Source: an uncultured Planctomycetales bacterium | GTDB lineage: Bacteria; Planctomycetota; Planctomycetia; Isosphaerales; Isosphaeraceae | Direction of reading: 5' to 3' | Assembly (NCBI GenBank): GCA_903926465.1 | Contig: CAIYJE010000020.1 | Coordinates: forward strand, 1 to 64,000 | Length of the DNA stretch: 64,000 bases | Part shown: one piece after another, positions 1,492 to 22,474 of the stretch | Position numbering within the stretch: the first letter of the stretch is position 1 | How the letters are laid out: each line of letters opens with the position of its first letter | The notes under the pieces: generated by a model | What the model saw: the letters and a program-made list of their open reading frames with translations, nothing else | Database searches by the model: none | Told to the model about the DNA's origin: nothing | Position numbers and translations under genes: made by a program

Positions 1492-4400
1492 GGGTTCGCG
1501 CCTGGAACAACGTCGGTGGGCGCTCCACCAATTTCACGGAAGTACAGCTGGATCAGGCGGGCGTAGTCATCGCGATAGCGGCCCTGGCTCATTTGCAGAA
1601 TCTCGTTCTTGAGGTGGCCGGGCAATTCGCCCCAGCGCCGGCCAGATCTGGCGAGCTGGGCCGGATCGAGCGCACCAAGGTGAGAGGCCACCTCCTGACC
1701 CTCCGAACTTTCAGGGGTCGCCCCTTGCGCCTCTGGAGGCGTGGCCCCCTTCTGGGAACGTTGCTCCCTGAGGCTCTGGGCCAGCCGCTCGCCCGCCTGG
1801 GTGTTGGAGGCCGCGGCCCTCAGTCCCTGCGCCGCCTGACGCATGGCCTCAGACGCAGTCTTGGTGGCGGCCTCGGAGTTCTTTCCAGGATTCTGGCCGC
1901 GGGCGGCCTGCTGGGCTTTGTCCAGTTCCTGGGCCGCCTGGTTCTGGGCCTCGCGTGCGCTGGCCAGGGCATCGCGATTGGCTTCTCCGTCCGCTTCCTG
2001 CCCGGCCCCATCACCGCGCGCCTGGGCGTCGGCGGGAATGTCTTTGCGAAGCGCGGAGGCCAGATCCGAGGCCTGGCGCGCAGCGTTCTCAAGGTGATCG
2101 GCCGCCTGACGCTGAGAGTCACGCGCCGAGGGCAACCGCCCCTGCGCCAGATGCTCCAGGCTTTGATTCATGGCGTTGGTGGCTTGCTGCTGTAGGGTAT
2201 TGGCTGCCGCCTGGGCCGGCCCCTGCGCTGCCTGGCTCAGGCCTTGCTGGCCCAGTTGCTGGCGGAGCGAGTCCAGGCTGCCGGCCAGTTCGGCGGCCGC
2301 TTCTCGGAGTGCCTCTTGTGGCTTCATCTCCGAGCCCAGCACGGCTTGAAGCTGCTCGCTGATCCGCCGCTGCCGCATGGCCAGGTCTCGCGCGGCCTCT
2401 CGGTGAGCATCGGCCAGCCCGAGTTCTGGATCTTGGGGCTGGGTCTGGCCAAGTAACGGCGCGGGCAGATTTTCAGCCCCTGCACCACCATTCTGGGCCT
2501 GGGGGTTTTCAGGCGGTTGATTCCCCTGCCCCGCATCCAGGGCCTGAGCCAGCTCGCCCAAGGCCTTGGCCGCTTGCCGACGTGCTTCGGTCAACGGTCT
2601 GGAACTCTCGGCGGGCGAGCTTGGCGAGGCGACCCGATCATTGAGGGCGGCCGCCTGCTTCACCCCCTGCTCGGCCTGCGACCGTGCAGAGGTGGCACTG
2701 GCATCGGGGTCGGCCGGCTTGGTGAGCCTTGTCAGATCGGCGGCAATGGCATACTGCTGCTTGGCCTGGCCCACGGCGTCTGGCACTTTCAAGGGGGCCG
2801 TAAGCGCTTCTTGGGCCCTCGCCAGTGCGGCCGCCTGTTCGCTGGCCGGTAAGGTGTCGGCTAGCCGTCGGGCCAGGGTTTCGGCTGCCTGAGCCGCCGC
2901 TTTCAGGTTGTGAGCGCGTGCTTCAGCTGCAGCCTCCAGTGGAGGCTGATCGTTCCCTTTGGCGGCTTCGGCCGCCTCGTTGGCTTTGACCAGATCATTG
3001 GCCGCCTGCTCGGCCAGGCGGACCGCCTCGGCCTGAAAGGTCGGGGCGTCGGGCACGTTCAAAGTTCGCAGCGCGGCCGCTGCCTGCCTCAGAATCTGGT
3101 ACTCCTGATCAGGAGACATCTTCAGTTCCAGCATCGCCTTCAGTTCGGCCGCCAGTTCCTGGGCCCGCTGATCGGGCGACGACCGCCCGTCAAGTGCCTG
3201 CTGAAGCCGATCCACCGAGGTGCGGGCATCGGCCGGGCTCAGATCCAGCCGCCTACGCAACTGATCAACCTGGGCAAGCTGCTCTGCCACCTCGCCCGTA
3301 GGCGGCGCACTGGCGGCCACTGAGAACGCCCATTCGCTCGTACCATTGCCACAGGCAACCACAAGCTGGTTCGGGCCTTCCAGGAAGGTCACATTGACCT
3401 GATCCTGGCCGGCTTGCCAGCCTCGCGGGCCGCCAAACTCAAAAACCTTGATGCCGTTCAGCCAGACTATGATCGAATCATCACAACCAATGCTAAGCTG
3501 GCCAGGACCGCCAGCCCCGCCCGAGACCTCGGTCACGCCAAAGGCGGTGCTGTTGTCGGTGGAACCCGCATCGGCCAGAAGCTGCTTGAGATCCACCTTC
3601 CCCTGCGCACCAGACGGTACCGGCAGCCAGGTGACAGGCTTCTTGTTGCGTGCCGGAATGGCAGCTTTGAAGTCGACCGCTTCGGTGACAGAAAACGGTG
3701 CCGGAGTGTTGCGGTCGAACGGGCCCAGCAGCCGCCAGTCAGCGGCCGGTTCGGCCTGCTGGGCGGCATCGGCCTCAGAGGGGACAGCCTTCTGGACCTC
3801 CTTGAGGAGCGCGGCCAAAGATTCGGCCCGATGCTGCGCGGTTACGCGCTGGGGCTCGGCCGTGCCCACGGTATCTACTCCGGCCAGCGTCTTGGCGGCT
3901 TGTTCGGCTTGCTGGGCCAGCGGTTCCAGCTTGCCGGCCAGTTCGCGGGCCGCCTTGGCGGGGGTTTGCTTGTTGCTGGCGGCGGCCGCGGCGGTTTCTC
4001 GCAAGTGCCCTTCCACCGCACGGGTCACCTCTTCCAGCTTCTGACGCGCCTCCTGGATTTGCTTTTGCGCCTGTTGACGGCGCTGCCAGGCCTCTGGAAG
4101 TTCGTTGGCCAGCCGCTGGAGCGCCTCTTTGGCTTCCTGGGCTCGGGCCACCTGCGCCTGGTCGGGCTTGCCACGCACGGCTTCGAGCGCCTTGGAGGTG
4201 GCCTCCCTGGCCTGCTCCAGGACCGCTTTCTGGGGTTCGGGGGCCACCAGGGCGGCGGCCATCTGTGCGACCGCTTCCTGACGCTGGATCAGGCTCTCGA
4301 TCGTTTTGGCCTGCACGGCCTGCTTTTCGGGCGTGTCTGCCGCTTCCTTCAGCGCAGCGGTCAAACGCTGGGCCACCTCGTCCTGGCGCTGGGCCAGGCG

Positions 4401-14031: not shown

Positions 14032-14629
14032 GAAAGGCTCCTCGGTGAATACCGGTCGGAAAACGGTCCCCGGTTCAAGCCAGGAAGCCGCAAACCCAGG
14101 CTGGTTTCAACGTTGCGTGGCGTGCGAGGTGTCGGCAGGAAGGCGACGAAGAATTCAGGCGGAGACGAGCAAGCAAATCCAAATCAAGCGGGAGGATAAA
14201 GAATACCGTCAATGCAGGGTGAGCGAAAGGAACCGGTTATTCCTCCCGGACAAGCCGCCGGTTCCCCAGCCAAACCGAGGTTCAGCCTGCACCACCCCTG
14301 GGACCACCAGCACCCGATGACCGGATGGCTGTTCCCTATTGAGCGATCAACCTGCGGAATTGGTGCGGGATTTGCGAAAATCCTTCCTCCACCGGTGGCT
14401 CCAGACGAAACCATTCTGGCTCCAGCATAGCGATTCCAGGCTCCAACTCAAAGCGGGACAGGCAACCGCGTGGCTTTGAGAACACCTCCCTGCCCCAGCC
14501 CATCACGATCCCAGGTTCCCGGCCGCATCAAACTTGACTTTATGACTGATTAGCCATATAGTTAACACTAAACCCACCCAGTGACCAACCAACGTGCTGG
14601 AACCGGCCATGCCAAGAAGGGGCAAAACT
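14032..14629. other. Intergenic region upstream of moxR, no gene seen
   Basis: About 600 bp between the divergent moxR start and the small plus-strand gene at 14630. Short reading frames exist on both strands, but none has a good Shine-Dalgarno site together with protein-like composition. It must hold the moxR operon promoter (minus) and that of the small gene (plus); I could not single out either. Confidence 0.5.
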
Positions 14630-14836
14630 ATGGACGTCTTGCTTCCGATCGGGGTGCTTGTCTTCTGGATCGTCTTGAATCTCTGGATTCTGCCCAAGCT
14701 TGGGGTACCCACGTGAATGAGCGGTTCGTGTGCGGTGTCACCGCACCCCGACGCTGTGAACAAGCCCGAGCTTGACCGTTCTGAATCGGCATCGAAACCT
14801 GTGGATCCGAAACAGCCTTCAATACCCGAACCCTGA
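14630..14836 (+). CDS. Small membrane protein with in-frame TGA: candidate selenoprotein
   Basis: ATG at 14630 sits 7 nt after AAGGGG. The first 28 codons encode a single hydrophobic helix and a short tail (MDVLLPIGVLVFWIVLNLW, then ILPKLGVPT). TGA follows at 14714-14716, and the same frame stays open for 39 more codons, starting MSGSCAVSP and ending IPEP before a second TGA at 14834-14836. I recall small planctomycete and proteobacterial proteins ending their helix in PKLGVPTC-MSG-C, so the TGA falls where a cysteine is expected. A bulged stem-loop starts 4 nt after the TGA (14720-14755). Its apical stem is GTGCGGT/ACCGCAC with loop GTC, placing a loop G 20 nt past the TGA, as bacterial SECIS elements require. 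Read with Sec, the protein has 68 residues and a U-x4-C pair. The alternative is a gene broken by a Cys-to-stop mutation. No sel genes are in the window. Confidence 0.5.
14720..14755 (+). promoter_or_regulatory. Possible bacterial SECIS stem-loop
   Basis: Starting 4 nt after the in-frame TGA (14714-14716): AGCG (14720-14723) pairs CGCT (14752-14755), TCG (14726-14728) pairs CGA (14749-14751), and GTGCGGT (14730-14736) pairs ACCGCAC (14740-14746). The apical loop is GTC, the left strand has a GU bulge, and a single U sits opposite CC. A G at the start of a small apical loop and bulged U residues are features I recall for SelB-dependent SECIS hairpins. Pairing was done by eye; no folding energy was computed. 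Confidence 0.4.
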
Positions 14837-14964
14837 AAACGCGAATACCACGTATCAAAGAATTGCCCGACGATTGGGTTATTTTTTGACACGTGTTGTA
14901 ATGTTCAAGGCTTGTTGGAATTGCAACTTCCGCTTGCGTTTCGATTGAGCCGGACGTGCCCCGG

Positions 14965-16499: not shown

Positions 16500-16850
16500 A
16501 TGCAAGCGACACTTCCCGACCAGTTTCTGGACAAGGTTGCCGAGAAGTTCCGAATGCTGGGCGATCCGACCCGGCTCTCCATTCTGCGCAGCCTGATGGC
16601 CGGAGAGCGGAACGTGAGCACGGTGGTGACGGAAACCGGCCAGAGCCAGGCGAACGTCTCCAAGCACCTGAAGATGCTGGCCGAGGCTGGCATGGTCCAG
16701 CGCCGCAAGGAGGGGCTTCAGGTCTTTTACCAGGTCAGTGACCCGCTGATTGAAAAACTCTGCATGCTGGTTTGCGGATCAATTCTTGAAGAAGCCCAGT
16801 CGCAGGTGGAAAAAAACCGCGAACTGCTGAAGTCTTGGAAAGGCCGCTGA
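16500..16850 (+). CDS. ArsR/SmtB-family transcriptional regulator
   Basis: 116 aa from an ATG at 16500; longer upstream frame has no signal for initiation. The winged helix-turn-helix is clear: FRMLGDPTRLSILRSLMAGE, then recognition helix TGQSQANVSKHLKMLAEAG and wing RRKEGLQVFYQVSD. The C-terminal helix has a Cys pair (CMLVC) in place of the distant Cys pair used by BigR/SqrR/YgaV sulfide sensors. There is no N-terminal Cys and no ELCVCDL metal motif. Divergence from two rhodaneses suggests sensing of reactive sulfur or a thiophilic metal and repression of that pair; this is inference from context. Confidence 0.9.
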   Translation: MQATLPDQFLDKVAEKFRMLGDPTRLSILRSLMAGERNVSTVVTETGQSQANVSKHLKMLAEAGMVQRRKEGLQVFYQVSDPLIEKLCMLVCGSILEEAQSQVEKNRELLKSWKGR

Positions 16851-16947: not shown

Positions 16948-17030
16948 GCTTGCTCTTGTCCTACAGAGCCGCGAACGGAAGTGAGCGACCAGCTCAGCAA
17001 GACGCTTCGGGGTCATGAACACCAGGTTGA
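16948..17030 (+). repeat. 83-bp degenerate repeat, copy 1 (direct)
   Basis: First of three related units. It differs from copy 2 at only two positions and is separated from it by 14 bp. The minus strand of each direct copy is open and reads FNLVFMTPKRLAELVAHFRS, so the unit may derive from a coding element. Spacing and copy number do not fit a CRISPR. Confidence 0.85.
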
Positions 17031-17044
17031 ACGCCGTTGCCAAC

Positions 17045-17127
17045 GCTTGCTCTCGTCCTACAGAGCCGCGAACGGAAGTGAGCGACCAGCTCAGCAAGAC
17101 GCTTCGGGGTCATGAACACCAGATTGA
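17045..17127 (+). repeat. 83-bp degenerate repeat, copy 2 (direct)
   Basis: Same orientation as copy 1, period 97 bp, two substitutions (positions equivalent to 16957 and 17025). The near identity implies a recent tandem duplication. Confidence 0.85.
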
Positions 17128-17174
17128 TCAGCGTTCGCAATGGTGTTTCGACCTGACTCGAAATCGCATTGGCC

Positions 17175-17735: not shown

Positions 17736-20700
17736 TCAGATCACCGGGGGCTTCGGGTCTTTGGGGTGAATGAGCCAGTAGCTGACCGGGATCACAAACA
17801 GAGTGAAGATAGTTGATGCGAACAGCCCGAAGATCAGCGACCAGGCCAAGCCCGAGAAGATCGGGTCGAGCACAATCGGAATACTGGAGAGCATGGCCGC
17901 GCCGGCGGTCAGTAAAATCGGCCGCATGCGCACCACTCGGCTTTCCATGATGGCATCAAACAGCGGACGCCCCTTCTTGACCGACTGGCCAATGAAGTCG
18001 ACCAGAATAATCGCATCGCGAGTGACAATACCTGAGAGCGCGATCATTCCAATCATAGCTGTGGCCGTGAATAAGACTGGGTCGGTGTAACCGCCAATCA
18101 CCTGACCAGAGACATGATTCAAGAGCCAGAAGCCCGGCATCACACCCAAAATGGTGAGCGGGATCGCCAGCATGACAACCAGCGGGATCAGGAACGAGCC
18201 GGTTTGCATGACCAGAATGACATATATCATCACCATGGCCGCGGCAAACGCCAGGCCCAGATCACGGAACACGTCCAGCGTGATCTTCCACTCCCCTTCC
18301 CCGCTGAAGCCAACCTGAATTCCTTCAGGAACCGACCAGGGCAAGCCGCCGCCATTGAGAATGAACGTGCGTTCGTTGAGCGGGCGTGGCTGGCCGGTCA
18401 ACACCCAGCCGCCGTCTGCTGATTTCTGAACCGGCTGGCCCTGGGGGGGCGGTGTTGCGTTTGGTTGGCGGTCAAACAAAACGTCCAGCACGCACTCGGC
18501 CGGCGTCCGGCCCAGCGTTTCTCCGGTCACGTACACCACGCGTTCGAGATTCTTGTGGTAAATCGTCTGGTCCACACGCGCGGTCTCCCAGCGACCAAGT
18601 TCTGAGATTGGTGTGAACTGACCGGTGCGCCCTTTGACGCGAATGGCAGACAGGTCTTGGGGACTGGAGCGGATGGCACGCGGCAAGCGCAACTCAATTC
18701 GCAAGGGATTGCGTTCCCCCTCTAGCCGCACCGTGCCCGCATCGCCCCCAGCCAGCACCAGGCGCAGTGTGCGGGCAATGTCCTCGACCGATACGCCGTT
18801 GAGCGCGGCCTTCTCTTGATCGGTCACAAACACCAGTTTCTGGGCAGGTGATTCCACCGTGTCGTCGACCTCGGCCACACCGGGCTCAAGGCGAAGCCGG
18901 TGGCCCACCGTATCCGCGGCATGGATCAGGTCTTCATACGAGTTTTCCGCACGACCGGAAACCTCGGCCACCAGTGACGAGAGTACCGGCGGGCCCGGCG
19001 GCAACTCCACAACCTTGAGCCGGGCCTGGTGTTTGTTCGCCAGGGCGGTCAGGCTGTCATGAATCCGCAGGGCAATTCCGTGGCTCTGGGTGGTGCGATG
19101 CTTCTTGCCCACCAGGTTCACCCGAAGTTCGGCGTTGTGCGGCTGCTGGCGCAGGTAGTAGTGCCGTACCAGGCCGTTGAAGTCGATCGGGCTGGCCAGG
19201 CCGACGTAACTCACATAGTCGGTAACCTCGGGAATCTGAGCCACGGCGGCCTCGAATTCGCCCAGGGCGGCATTGGTTCGTTCGAGCGTGGTCCCCTCCT
19301 CGAAGTCCAGCACCAGCAGCAGCTCGTTCTTGTTGTCGAACGGGAGCATTTTCAAGGGCACCACGCGCATGGCCGCCAGGCCGGCCGCGGCGGCCGTGAG
19401 CAGGGCAATGACCAGAAGAAATGAGATTGCCGCCAGCCTGGAGCTGATCAAGGGGGCCATCAGCGGGCGAAACAGCTTATACAGAAAGGTCTGGCGAATG
19501 GCCTCGAAGTCATCCTCGTCACCATGGCCGTGCCCGTGCCCGGCGGCCGCTTCCTGATTGAACTTCTTGTGCAAGAACTGATAAGCGAGCCACGGGGTAA
19601 TGGTGAAGGCCACCACCATAGACATCAGCATGGCCACGGGCACGTTGAGGGCCATGGGTGCCATGTAGGGGCCCATCATGCCGGTGATGAAGAACATGGG
19701 CAAAAAGCTCACGATGACCGCCAGCGTGGCACTGATCAAGGGGGGCCGAATTTCGGCCACCGCTTCCAGCACAATGTCGCGGGTGGCTCGGCCACGCATG
19801 GCGAAGTGCCTGGCAATATTCTCGACATCGACAATCGGATCGTCGACCAGCAGGCCCAGAGACAGGATTAAGGCAAACAGAGTGACCCGGTTGATGGTGT
19901 AGCCAAACAGCAGGTTCACGCCGAGCGTCAATCCGAACACCACCGGCACGGCCACGGCCACAATAATCGCCTCTCGCCAGCCCAGGCTCAGCGTGAGCAG
20001 CGCAATAACAATGGCAATGGCAACCCAAAGGCCTTCCACAAGCTCGTTCACCTTGTCGTCGGCGGTTAGCCCCGAGTTCCGCGTGATCACAAGGTCCATA
20101 TCGGTGGGAATCACGTCCTGGCGCAAGGCCTCGGCAGCCTTCAGCACCGACTCGGCCACCGCCACCGCATTGGTCCCCTTCTGCTTGGAAACGGCCAGGG
20201 TGACGGCCGGTTGCGCGCCGGCAGTCGGCCTTGGCTCCGCCTCTTGGTCGTGATCATGTTCGTTCGCGATGTCAGGCCGGCCAACTTCGGTGCCAGGGAA
20301 ACCGAGAGGGGCGTGGAACCCGCGGGCGGGCCCCCACCCGTGGCGCAGGTAGGTGGTTACTTCGGCGGGCCCGTCGGTCACGGTGGCCACGTCTTTCAGG
20401 AACACGGGGCGGCCATTGAACACGCCCACCACCAGTTCTGGCAATCGCTCGGGCCGATCGGCGGCCACACCCCCTTCGACCTTGTACAGGGTGTCATTGC
20501 GCGTGAATTCGCCGGCCGGGTGGGTGATGTTGGCCCCCCGGAGCGTGGCCTGGATTTCAAGCGGGCTCAGGGCGTAGGCCTGAAGCCGTTCGGGATCGAG
20601 GTCAATCCGAACGGTCCGGGGTTCGCCTCCTACCACATAGGCCCTGGATACCCCCGGTAGTGCCGAGAGTCGCTGAACCGCTTCTTCGCCCACCCGCCGC

Positions 20701-21224
20701 AGAGAGTAGGAATCGGTGTGGTCACCGGCCAGGGTCAGCGTTACCACGGGTACGTCGTCAATTTCCACCGGCTTCACCACCCAGCTTGCCACGGCCGGCG
20801 GGATGATATCTTGGCTCTCATTGATCATCTTGAACAGCTTGACCAGGCTGCGCTCACGATCTTGTCCCACGTAGAACCGAACCGTGATCACCGCCTGATT
20901 GGGCCTTGACATGCTGTAGACATATTCTACGCCGTCGATCTGATAGAGAATCCGCTCCAGGGGGTTGGCCACCAGTTGTTCAACCTGGGCTGCGGAGTAG
21001 CCGGGGGCGTTCACCATCACGTCGGCCAGCGGCACCACAATTTGTGGGTCTTCTTCACGCGCTGTCAGAAAAAGGGCCGCCAGCCCAATCAGCACCGAGA
21101 CCACAATCAGAATGATTGAGAAGTTGTTATCCAGAAAGATATGAACAATACCGTTCAGCAGGTCATGTTTTTTGGGCTCAACCGTGGAGCCAGCGGCCTG
21201 CGAGGTGATTTCATGATGGCTCAT
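17736..21224 (-). CDS. RND-family efflux permease (HAE1-like)
   Basis: 1162 aa, inner-membrane proton-driven efflux subunit. It starts with a cytosolic stretch and first helix (FSIILIVVSVLIGLAALFL), then porter domain motifs (ADVMVNAPGYSAAQVEQLVANPLE, split across the domain start). The TM4 region GLLVDDPIVDVENIARHF has the paired aspartates used for proton relay in AcrB-type pumps. The family is usually 1020-1050 aa; the excess includes two charged His-rich loops. One is in the first porter half (NEHDHDQEAEPRPT), one in the cytoplasmic loop (GHGHGHGDEDDFEAI). ATGA overlap with the adaptor gene shows coupling. No outer-membrane factor gene follows. Substrate is unknown; the His-rich loops may bind metal. 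Confidence 0.92.
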   Translation of the reverse strand: MSHHEITSQAAGSTVEPKKHDLLNGIVHIFLDNNFSIILIVVSVLIGLAALFLTAREEDPQIVVPLADVMVNAPGYSAAQVEQLVANPLERILYQIDGVEYVYSMSRPNQAVITVRFYVGQDRERSLVKLFKMINESQDIIPPAVASWVVKPVEIDDVPVVTLTLAGDHTDSYSLRRVGEEAVQRLSALPGVSRAYVVGGEPRTVRIDLDPERLQAYALSPLEIQATLRGANITHPAGEFTRNDTLYKVEGGVAADRPERLPELVVGVFNGRPVFLKDVATVTDGPAEVTTYLRHGWGPARGFHAPLGFPGTEVGRPDIANEHDHDQEAEPRPTAGAQPAVTLAVSKQKGTNAVAVAESVLKAAEALRQDVIPTDMDLVITRNSGLTADDKVNELVEGLWVAIAIVIALLTLSLGWREAIIVAVAVPVVFGLTLGVNLLFGYTINRVTLFALILSLGLLVDDPIVDVENIARHFAMRGRATRDIVLEAVAEIRPPLISATLAVIVSFLPMFFITGMMGPYMAPMALNVPVAMLMSMVVAFTITPWLAYQFLHKKFNQEAAAGHGHGHGDEDDFEAIRQTFLYKLFRPLMAPLISSRLAAISFLLVIALLTAAAAGLAAMRVVPLKMLPFDNKNELLLVLDFEEGTTLERTNAALGEFEAAVAQIPEVTDYVSYVGLASPIDFNGLVRHYYLRQQPHNAELRVNLVGKKHRTTQSHGIALRIHDSLTALANKHQARLKVVELPPGPPVLSSLVAEVSGRAENSYEDLIHAADTVGHRLRLEPGVAEVDDTVESPAQKLVFVTDQEKAALNGVSVEDIARTLRLVLAGGDAGTVRLEGERNPLRIELRLPRAIRSSPQDLSAIRVKGRTGQFTPISELGRWETARVDQTIYHKNLERVVYVTGETLGRTPAECVLDVLFDRQPNATPPPQGQPVQKSADGGWVLTGQPRPLNERTFILNGGGLPWSVPEGIQVGFSGEGEWKITLDVFRDLGLAFAAAMVMIYVILVMQTGSFLIPLVVMLAIPLTILGVMPGFWLLNHVSGQVIGGYTDPVLFTATAMIGMIALSGIVTRDAIILVDFIGQSVKKGRPLFDAIMESRVVRMRPILLTAGAAMLSSIPIVLDPIFSGLAWSLIFGLFASTIFTLFVIPVSYWLIHPKDPKPPVI

Positions 21225-22363
21225 GACTGGCCCCCGGGCTTGCGTTCCGTGGACGGCTTGTTTAGAAGCACATGGTCGTCTGGGCTCAGGCCAGAGAGCA
21301 CTTCACGCCCTTCTTGCAAGCGGCGTCCCAGTTGCACGGAACGGCGACGGATCCGGCCGTTTTCCACCACGTCCACTTCATCAAGCTGCCCAATTTTGCG
21401 GATGGCGTCGGTAGGCACCACCAGCACCTCTTCCTCTTCGAGCGGGATAAAGATGCGGCCGAACATGCCACTGTAGATATTGGGGGGACAGGGGCCGGTC
21501 ACCTTCACCTGAAACGACCGGCTTTCGGCCTGTGCCTCGGGCACAATTTCGCTCACCGTTGCGCGACAGGTGTAGCCAAAGGTGTCAATTTGGGCGGTCA
21601 GTTCCTGGCCCACCTGAAGCTTCAATGCCAGGGTTTCTCGAACCGTGGCCACCAGTTGCATGCGGCTGGGGTCATACATGCTTACCAGCGGCTGGCCCTG
21701 GCTCACAGTATCGCCCACGTTCACTTTCTTATCCACAATACGGCCCGAAAGCGGAGCCCGCACGGTGGCATAATCTTCCAGGATGCGGGTTTCCTCCACC
21801 GCCCGCTGAGAGCGATCGAGTTCGGCCTTGGCCGTGGTCAGGGCCGTGTTGGCCAGATCCAGGTCGCTCTGGGTAATCGACTCACGCGCCCGCAGCCGGG
21901 CGGCCCGGCCCTGTTCCAGCACCGCCTGATCATATTTGGCTCTGGCAGATTTTTCAGTGGCCTGAGCCTGTTCAAACTTGGACTGGAGATCGGCCTTGTC
22001 CAGCACCACCAGCACGTCGCCCTGTTTCACATCCTGGCCAGCTTTCACCCGCACCTCTTCAACCCTGGCCAGAATCTTGGACGCCACCACCGCCTCATAG
22101 ACTGCGCGAATGCTTCCCACCGCCGACTCCTCACGCGGCCGCCGGATCAATTTCACCACCCCCTGGGCAGGCTCAGCCCCAGCGAACGCGGCCAGTTCTG
22201 AGCTTGGCTTCGCCCGTGGCAGGATCTTGGGCTCAAAATAACCCGCCAGCACCAGCATCAGTGCCACAATTCCGGCGGCAAAAAACGCGGTGAGCGCCAG
22301 CGTGAGCACGCCTCGCAACACCGCACGCGAAGGCCGGGGCTTGAACTCGGTCGCCAAGACCAT
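21221..22363 (-). CDS. RND efflux periplasmic adaptor (HlyD/MFP family)
   Basis: 380 aa from an ATG at 22363 preceded by AGGAAGGGA; the longer frame to 22447 lacks a ribosome site. N-terminal membrane anchor (LTLALTAFFAAGIVALMLVLA), lipoyl half-motifs (VKAGQDVKQGDVLVVLDKAD and VRAPLSGRIVDKKVNVGDTV), a coiled-coil hairpin between them, then beta-barrel and membrane-proximal domains. It links the permease to an outer-membrane channel. Transcribed ahead of the permease from the promoter at 22475-22503. Confidence 0.92.
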   Translation of the reverse strand: MVLATEFKPRPSRAVLRGVLTLALTAFFAAGIVALMLVLAGYFEPKILPRAKPSSELAAFAGAEPAQGVVKLIRRPREESAVGSIRAVYEAVVASKILARVEEVRVKAGQDVKQGDVLVVLDKADLQSKFEQAQATEKSARAKYDQAVLEQGRAARLRARESITQSDLDLANTALTTAKAELDRSQRAVEETRILEDYATVRAPLSGRIVDKKVNVGDTVSQGQPLVSMYDPSRMQLVATVRETLALKLQVGQELTAQIDTFGYTCRATVSEIVPEAQAESRSFQVKVTGPCPPNIYSGMFGRIFIPLEEEEVLVVPTDAIRKIGQLDEVDVVENGRIRRRSVQLGRRLQEGREVLSGLSPDDHVLLNKPSTERKPGGQS

Positions 22364-22474
22364 TGAGATTCCCTTCCTGAACCGGCGCTGCCACCGGAGG
22401 ATAATCGCTGGATAACCGTCACTACCCACCCGCCTTAGGGTTCCCACGGAACGGGGAACTCAAGACTAAATACT

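Follow-up and report, generated by a model that had tools for sequence, protein, structure and literature searches.

An open reading frame at positions 14630-14836 of the DNA analysed here, a stretch of 64,000 nucleotides from an uncultured Planctomycetales bacterium (the window), raises the question of whether its internal TGA ends a short peptide or is read as selenocysteine. The ATG at 14630 is followed by 28 codons, an in-frame TGA at 14714-14716 (codon 29), 39 further codons and a TGA stop at 14834-14836, exactly as laid out in a preliminary description that had proposed a new small membrane selenoprotein preceded by a Shine-Dalgarno site. The promoter-like and terminator-like elements flanking the frame (Table 1) make the 68-codon ORF look like a complete single-gene unit. 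The promoter, with identical hexamers and the exact 17-nt spacer, was found in 15 of 25 family loci, 89-130 nt 5' of the start, against a background of 24 in 982 windows when spacers of 16-18 nt were allowed. An alternative start at 14609 (MPRRGKT-) was considered less likely, as the inner ATG follows the Shine-Dalgarno sequence and the codons upstream are the purine-rich site itself. An antisense ORF at 14503-14892 was rejected because the variation by codon position agreed with the sense frame. Standard annotation drops such a gene, since the internal stop makes the ORF look 28 codons long.

Table 1. Features of the candidate selenoprotein gene and its neighbourhood in the window
Feature	Positions	Strand	Basis and remarks
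Promoter, sigma70-like, TTGACT-17-TATAGT	14534-14562	+	Sequence; common to other family loci
Shine-Dalgarno AAGGGG	14617-14622	+	Sequence; 7 nt 5' of ATG; similarly placed purine-rich stretch in most relatives
Candidate selenoprotein ORF, 68 residues with Sec29	14630-14836	+	Helix predicted at residues 4-23; U29-x4-C34; tail unconserved
In-frame TGA, probably read as selenocysteine	14714-14716	+	TGA or Cys codon there in homologues; state tracks SelB and tRNA-Sec
Putative SECIS hairpin, 7 bp, apical loop GTC (14737-14739)	14730-14746	+	Covariation; depressed synonymous change; loss in most Cys forms
Hairpin resembling an intrinsic terminator, then T-run	14865-14879	+	Just past the second stop
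Rhodanese, convergent, apparent signal peptide, 143 aa	14965-15396	-	PF00581, E 1.7e-12
Rhodanese with YgaP-like membrane domain, 193 aa	15621-16202	-	PF00581 and PF11127 above cut-off
ArsR-family regulator, start 16500 estimated	16500-16850	+	NF033788, 84.2 bits (cut-off 55)

The hairpin with a GTC loop whose G lies 20 nt from the TGA, also pointed out beforehand, was indeed present. Of the 2178 TGAs on both strands of the window, 54 (2.5%) are followed at a suitable spacing by a simple hairpin that is just as stable, and the fold z-score of the hairpin was only -1.67. The hairpin of the window alone is thus weak evidence, and the verdict rests on the comparison with relatives.

Homologues were searched for with a query carrying Cys at position 29. 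Among 45 genomes of the same family (Isosphaeraceae), 30 gave a match, one of which (L046 in genome G007) was spurious, leaving 29. The intact TGA form was read in 22 of these genomes, only TGC forms were present in five (L018, L032, L037, L038 and L042), and the copies in G006 (L045) and G031 were decayed. In G031, one broken copy (L020) carries another stop and the sole TGG at codon 29, and a second copy (L085) is degenerate. Phylum-wide, matches were detected in 41 of 392 genomes, with TGA or TGC/TGT at codon 29 in the loci read, so that the expectation of relatives with Cys in place of the TGA was borne out at exactly this codon. A Verrucomicrobiales genome also carries a Cys form. More than one match was found in five of the 45 genomes, and a Cys paralogue stands beside the TGA form in some SelB-positive genomes, for example in G017 (L092, contig C11), where the two lie at 4012-4135 and 14491-14596, approximately 10 kb apart.

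Several further loci were inspected individually. L084 and L085 (G031) and L105 (G006) were decayed, with TGG plus an upstream stop, a degenerate motif and loss of the Cys, in genomes that lack the Sec machinery; L084 still has neighbours of the ArsR, DsrE and rhodanese types. Weak TGA-bearing matches in Verrucomicrobiota (L127 and L128, LPSMGVETU and LPAMGVGTU) lack the second Cys and show another TGA soon after, and may either belong to a divergent branch or be fortuitous. The long frames upstream of the gene in L135, L136 and L137 were judged to be open by chance, the DNA being GC-rich, and not to represent fusion partners, and no plasmid copies of the gene were found.

The aligned members share the motif W-x-LP-x2-G-x3-[U/C]-x4-C, with W19, L21, P22, G25, U/C29 and C34 invariant in the 26-member alignment, and the TGA therein was aligned to Cys or TGA with conserved flanks on both sides. 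It is highly improbable that the frame is an ordinary 28-residue membrane peptide ending at the TGA, followed by a frame and a hairpin arising by chance: the 2.5% frequency of comparable hairpins and the unconstrained C-terminal tail past codon 40 would fit such a peptide, but Cys34 is invariant, pN/pS was 0.40 in codons 30-34, Cys codons replace the TGA in genomes without Sec machinery and a conserved TAA or TAG never occupies this position, so that the comparison already refutes it. Reading of the TGA as Trp was also rejected, since every intact relative without the TGA has Cys there and the source genome is equipped with the Sec machinery.

The complete set of selA, selB, selC and selD was identified in the source genome. 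The tRNA-Sec was detected by ARAGORN and by Rfam (64.3 bits), SelB scored 353 bits and SelA 508 bits, with selA adjoining selB, and SelD was found with the active site CAG-U-AGKLSP and an in-frame TGA of its own, an internal positive control. Within the same family, SelB was found in 21 of the 22 genomes that carry an intact TGA form and in none of the seven with only Cys or decayed copies (Fisher p = 5e-6), and in the wider set tRNA-Sec was found in 25 of 29 TGA-form genomes and in none of the 15 whose copies are all Cys forms or decayed (Fisher p = 1.7e-8), both p-values being indicative because the tests count related genomes as independent. The TGA-form genome without detected SelB (G020) possesses tRNA-Sec and is 89% complete, and the four TGA-form genomes of the phylum without detected tRNA-Sec are assemblies of 59-80% completeness. 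Several of the Cys-form genomes without tRNA-Sec are single contigs of 99-100% completeness. In one genus (g18), two genomes (G033 and G034) have the TGA form and the machinery, while in two others (G035 and G036; 64% and 77% complete) the Cys form was present and the machinery was not found. Overall, the TGA form was restricted to Sec-using genomes. Against this distribution it is hardly credible that the gene is a pseudogene or that a Cys gene with a nonsense mutation (TGC or TGT to TGA) is being read through. TGC is one step from TGA, and G006 and G031 do hold decayed copies, but these are confined to genomes without SelB and tRNA-Sec, and most TGA copies are otherwise intact, under purifying selection and spread over many genera.

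The hairpin was then compared among the relatives. In the 22 aligned TGA forms, 93.5% of the cells in the 7-bp stem were paired, a share that dropped to 88.0% in shuffled data and did not exceed 57.8% when the register was slid, and two-sided changes, mostly from U-A to C-G, were observed in three stem pairs. The synonymous difference was 0.23 in the hairpin codons versus 0.64-0.77 in the preceding codons. The structure directly 3' of the TGA, with a G in its small apical loop, was conserved in the TGA forms, including the distant L055, L067 and L078, in which the hairpin is kept though the sequence and the encoded residues differ; a few distant TGA forms have a poor hairpin, with a 5-nt loop in L041 and weak structures in L056, L072 and L082. 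The hairpin was lost in most Cys forms, and the median best hairpin energy was -9.7 kcal/mol for the TGA forms versus -2.3 kcal/mol for the Cys forms (p = 3e-5). One Cys form (L018, also L047; Planctomycetales bacterium 71-10, G032:C121), in a genome without SelB or tRNA-Sec, retains the hairpin unchanged, which we interpret as a fossil SECIS left by a recent Sec-to-Cys change.

Given the TGA/Cys exchange, the co-occurrence with the Sec trait, the covariation of the hairpin, the synonymous constraint, the purifying selection 5' of the hairpin, the fossil in L018 and the position of the terminator, we estimate a probability of about 0.93 that the ORF truly encodes a bacterial selenoprotein, a reading that is nearly as well supported as sequence comparison permits. 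The UGA at codon 29 would be decoded as selenocysteine by means of SelB, tRNA-Sec and the downstream SECIS hairpin; the machinery was found, and the recoding itself is what we infer from the comparison. The three circumstances named in the preliminary description as speaking against its proposal, which were absence of selA/B/C, lack of homologues with Cys or Sec at this codon and lack of conservation past the TGA, were all examined and none was encountered, supporting the selenoprotein interpretation.

The predicted product is a 68-residue single-pass membrane protein with the U29-x4-C34 pair just past the helix, in agreement with the U-x4-C beside a membrane helix proposed earlier. In the AlphaFold model of the conserved 42 residues, residues 4-23 form a single helix, followed by a short tail of low confidence. 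The C-terminus with the Sec residue probably lies on the cytoplasmic side, as suggested by Arg/Lys after the helix and the positive-inside rule. No meaningful structural relatives were found among solved structures, and Pfam and NCBIfam 20.0 gave no meaningful match for any of the 26 aligned members.

A catalogue of May 2026 lists 119 prokaryotic selenoprotein families, among which there is no single-helix protein with U-x4-C (PMC13188914), and the new protein matched neither the family models nor the listed motifs. The claim that the family is absent from the standard lists therefore held, and the family appears to be new as far as checked; an earlier mention among the candidates of a 2016 study that reported selenoproteins in two planctomycetes is possible (PMC4807772). 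The novelty lies in the protein family, as SelB-dependent recoding is a known, standard mechanism: the in-frame TGA, the downstream hairpin with a loop G, the Sec/Cys exchange and the dependence on selABCD are shared with the catalogued selenoproteins. The YeeE/YedE thiosulfate transporter (PF04143, GUxSG) is likewise a membrane selenoprotein handling sulfur, but it is a large multi-helix transporter, whereas the new family has one helix and no sequence similarity to it.

As described beforehand, the neighbours in the window are two rhodaneses and a regulator, recognised by PF00581 and as ArsR-family, respectively. The regulator carries a C-x3-C (LCMLVC) near its C-terminus that is common to most of its neighbourhood relatives in the alignment. 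Genes similar to the nearer rhodanese adjoin the homologue in L093, L094 and L100. In 41 regions, 16 of 19 members of the rhodanese cluster and 14 of 18 ArsR genes lay within 2 kb of the gene and almost none past 4 kb, two of the 14 being chance ORFs by alignment. Other close neighbours encode MBL-rhodanese (persulfide-dioxygenase-like), DsrE, TauE-like permease, Sulf_transp (YeeE/YedE; directly upstream of the homologue in L108) and SQR-type pyridine nucleotide-disulfide oxidoreductases, where TauE-like and SQR-type are our own reading of the sequences. This conserved linkage with sulfur genes was seen in part of the family only, as many loci outside the close group have unrelated neighbours and no nearby sulfur genes. 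In several loci the ArsR gene is divergent from the promoter with the 17-nt spacer, which makes control by ArsR plausible; a search for an operator in the spacer gave only a weak dyad. The window further contains two direct 96-nt copies (93% identical, 97 nt apart) at 16948-17140, just 3' of the ArsR gene, and a large efflux gene of RND type with the gene next to it at 17736-22447, which several other genomes likewise carry at 4-8 kb from the selenoprotein gene. An Rfam match at 16638-16743 was regarded as chance.

Among known systems, the Tso neighbourhood (TsoA, B, C, R, X and Y; NF045694, NF045695, NF045707, NF045708, NF045809 and NF047643) comes closest in its setting; genes for an ArsR regulator, a rhodanese and a selenoprotein likewise occur together there, and TsoB is listed with a U-x4-U motif (PMC13188914). 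With the TsoR model (cut-off 115) the ArsR of the window reached 45.4, and with the TsoB model (cut-off 805) the rhodanese reached 23. A relation to TsoB was not supported: none of 294 genomes from the phylum contained a TsoB above the cut-off. The sulfide/persulfide operons of BigR type and cst type and E. coli ygaVP share with these loci the ArsR repressor and the rhodanese, which is YgaP-like in the window, as well as genes for MBL-rhodanese, TauE-like permease and SQR-like proteins. We know of no small selenoprotein in any of them. The regulator of the window differs from BigR, whose operon is described in PMC5823870, by its score of 42.8 bits against the BigR cut-off of 155 and by the C-x3-C near the C-terminus.

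On the basis of the gene neighbourhood, we propose a role in sulfane-sulfur (persulfide/polysulfide) chemistry for the membrane-anchored selenol/thiol pair, a proposal whose chances we consider evenly balanced. The gene would belong to a set for sulfane sulfur, probably under a thiol ArsR repressor. Sec29 would take up sulfur as a Se-S adduct, and Cys34 would resolve the adduct, or the sulfur would pass to rhodanese, DsrE or persulfide dioxygenase. As many distant loci lack sulfur genes, the role is the least certain part of the interpretation.

Two other roles for a true selenoprotein were weighed. It is distinctly unlikely that the U-C pair binds a metal or metalloid and that the regulator senses metals. 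ArsR-family regulators are frequently metal sensors, and RND efflux genes occur 2-8 kb away in 10 regions. Metal-ligand roles have also been assigned to some transporter-linked selenoproteins (PMC13188914); the nearest neighbours are nevertheless rhodanese genes and not RND genes, and the DsrE, MBL-rhodanese, TauE and Sulf_transp genes favour sulfur. A general thiol/peroxide reductase or redox sensor at the membrane is also unlikely, although most known selenoproteins are oxidoreductases (PMC13188914), the U/C pair would suit such a function and the next genes in L114 match AhpC-TSA/redoxin, because one helix with a short low-confidence tail provides no thioredoxin-like fold and the recurrent neighbours are sulfur genes.

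The finding adds a family to the approximately 119 catalogued prokaryotic ones, in a phylum with few described. It also offers an unusually clean natural experiment, in which TGA, Cys, fossil-SECIS Cys and decayed copies track whether the Sec machinery is present or lost, partly within single genera. For the sulfane-sulfur role, a tentative form is that of a dedicated carrier, in which the Sec-x4-Cys pair, anchored by its single helix and controlled by a sulfur-sensing ArsR repressor, would link sulfur import or sulfide oxidation at the membrane to the rhodaneses. If true, this would be a selenium-based membrane sulfur relay. The family also suggests that selenium and the chemistry of sulfane sulfur may be connected at the membrane, which can be put to the test.
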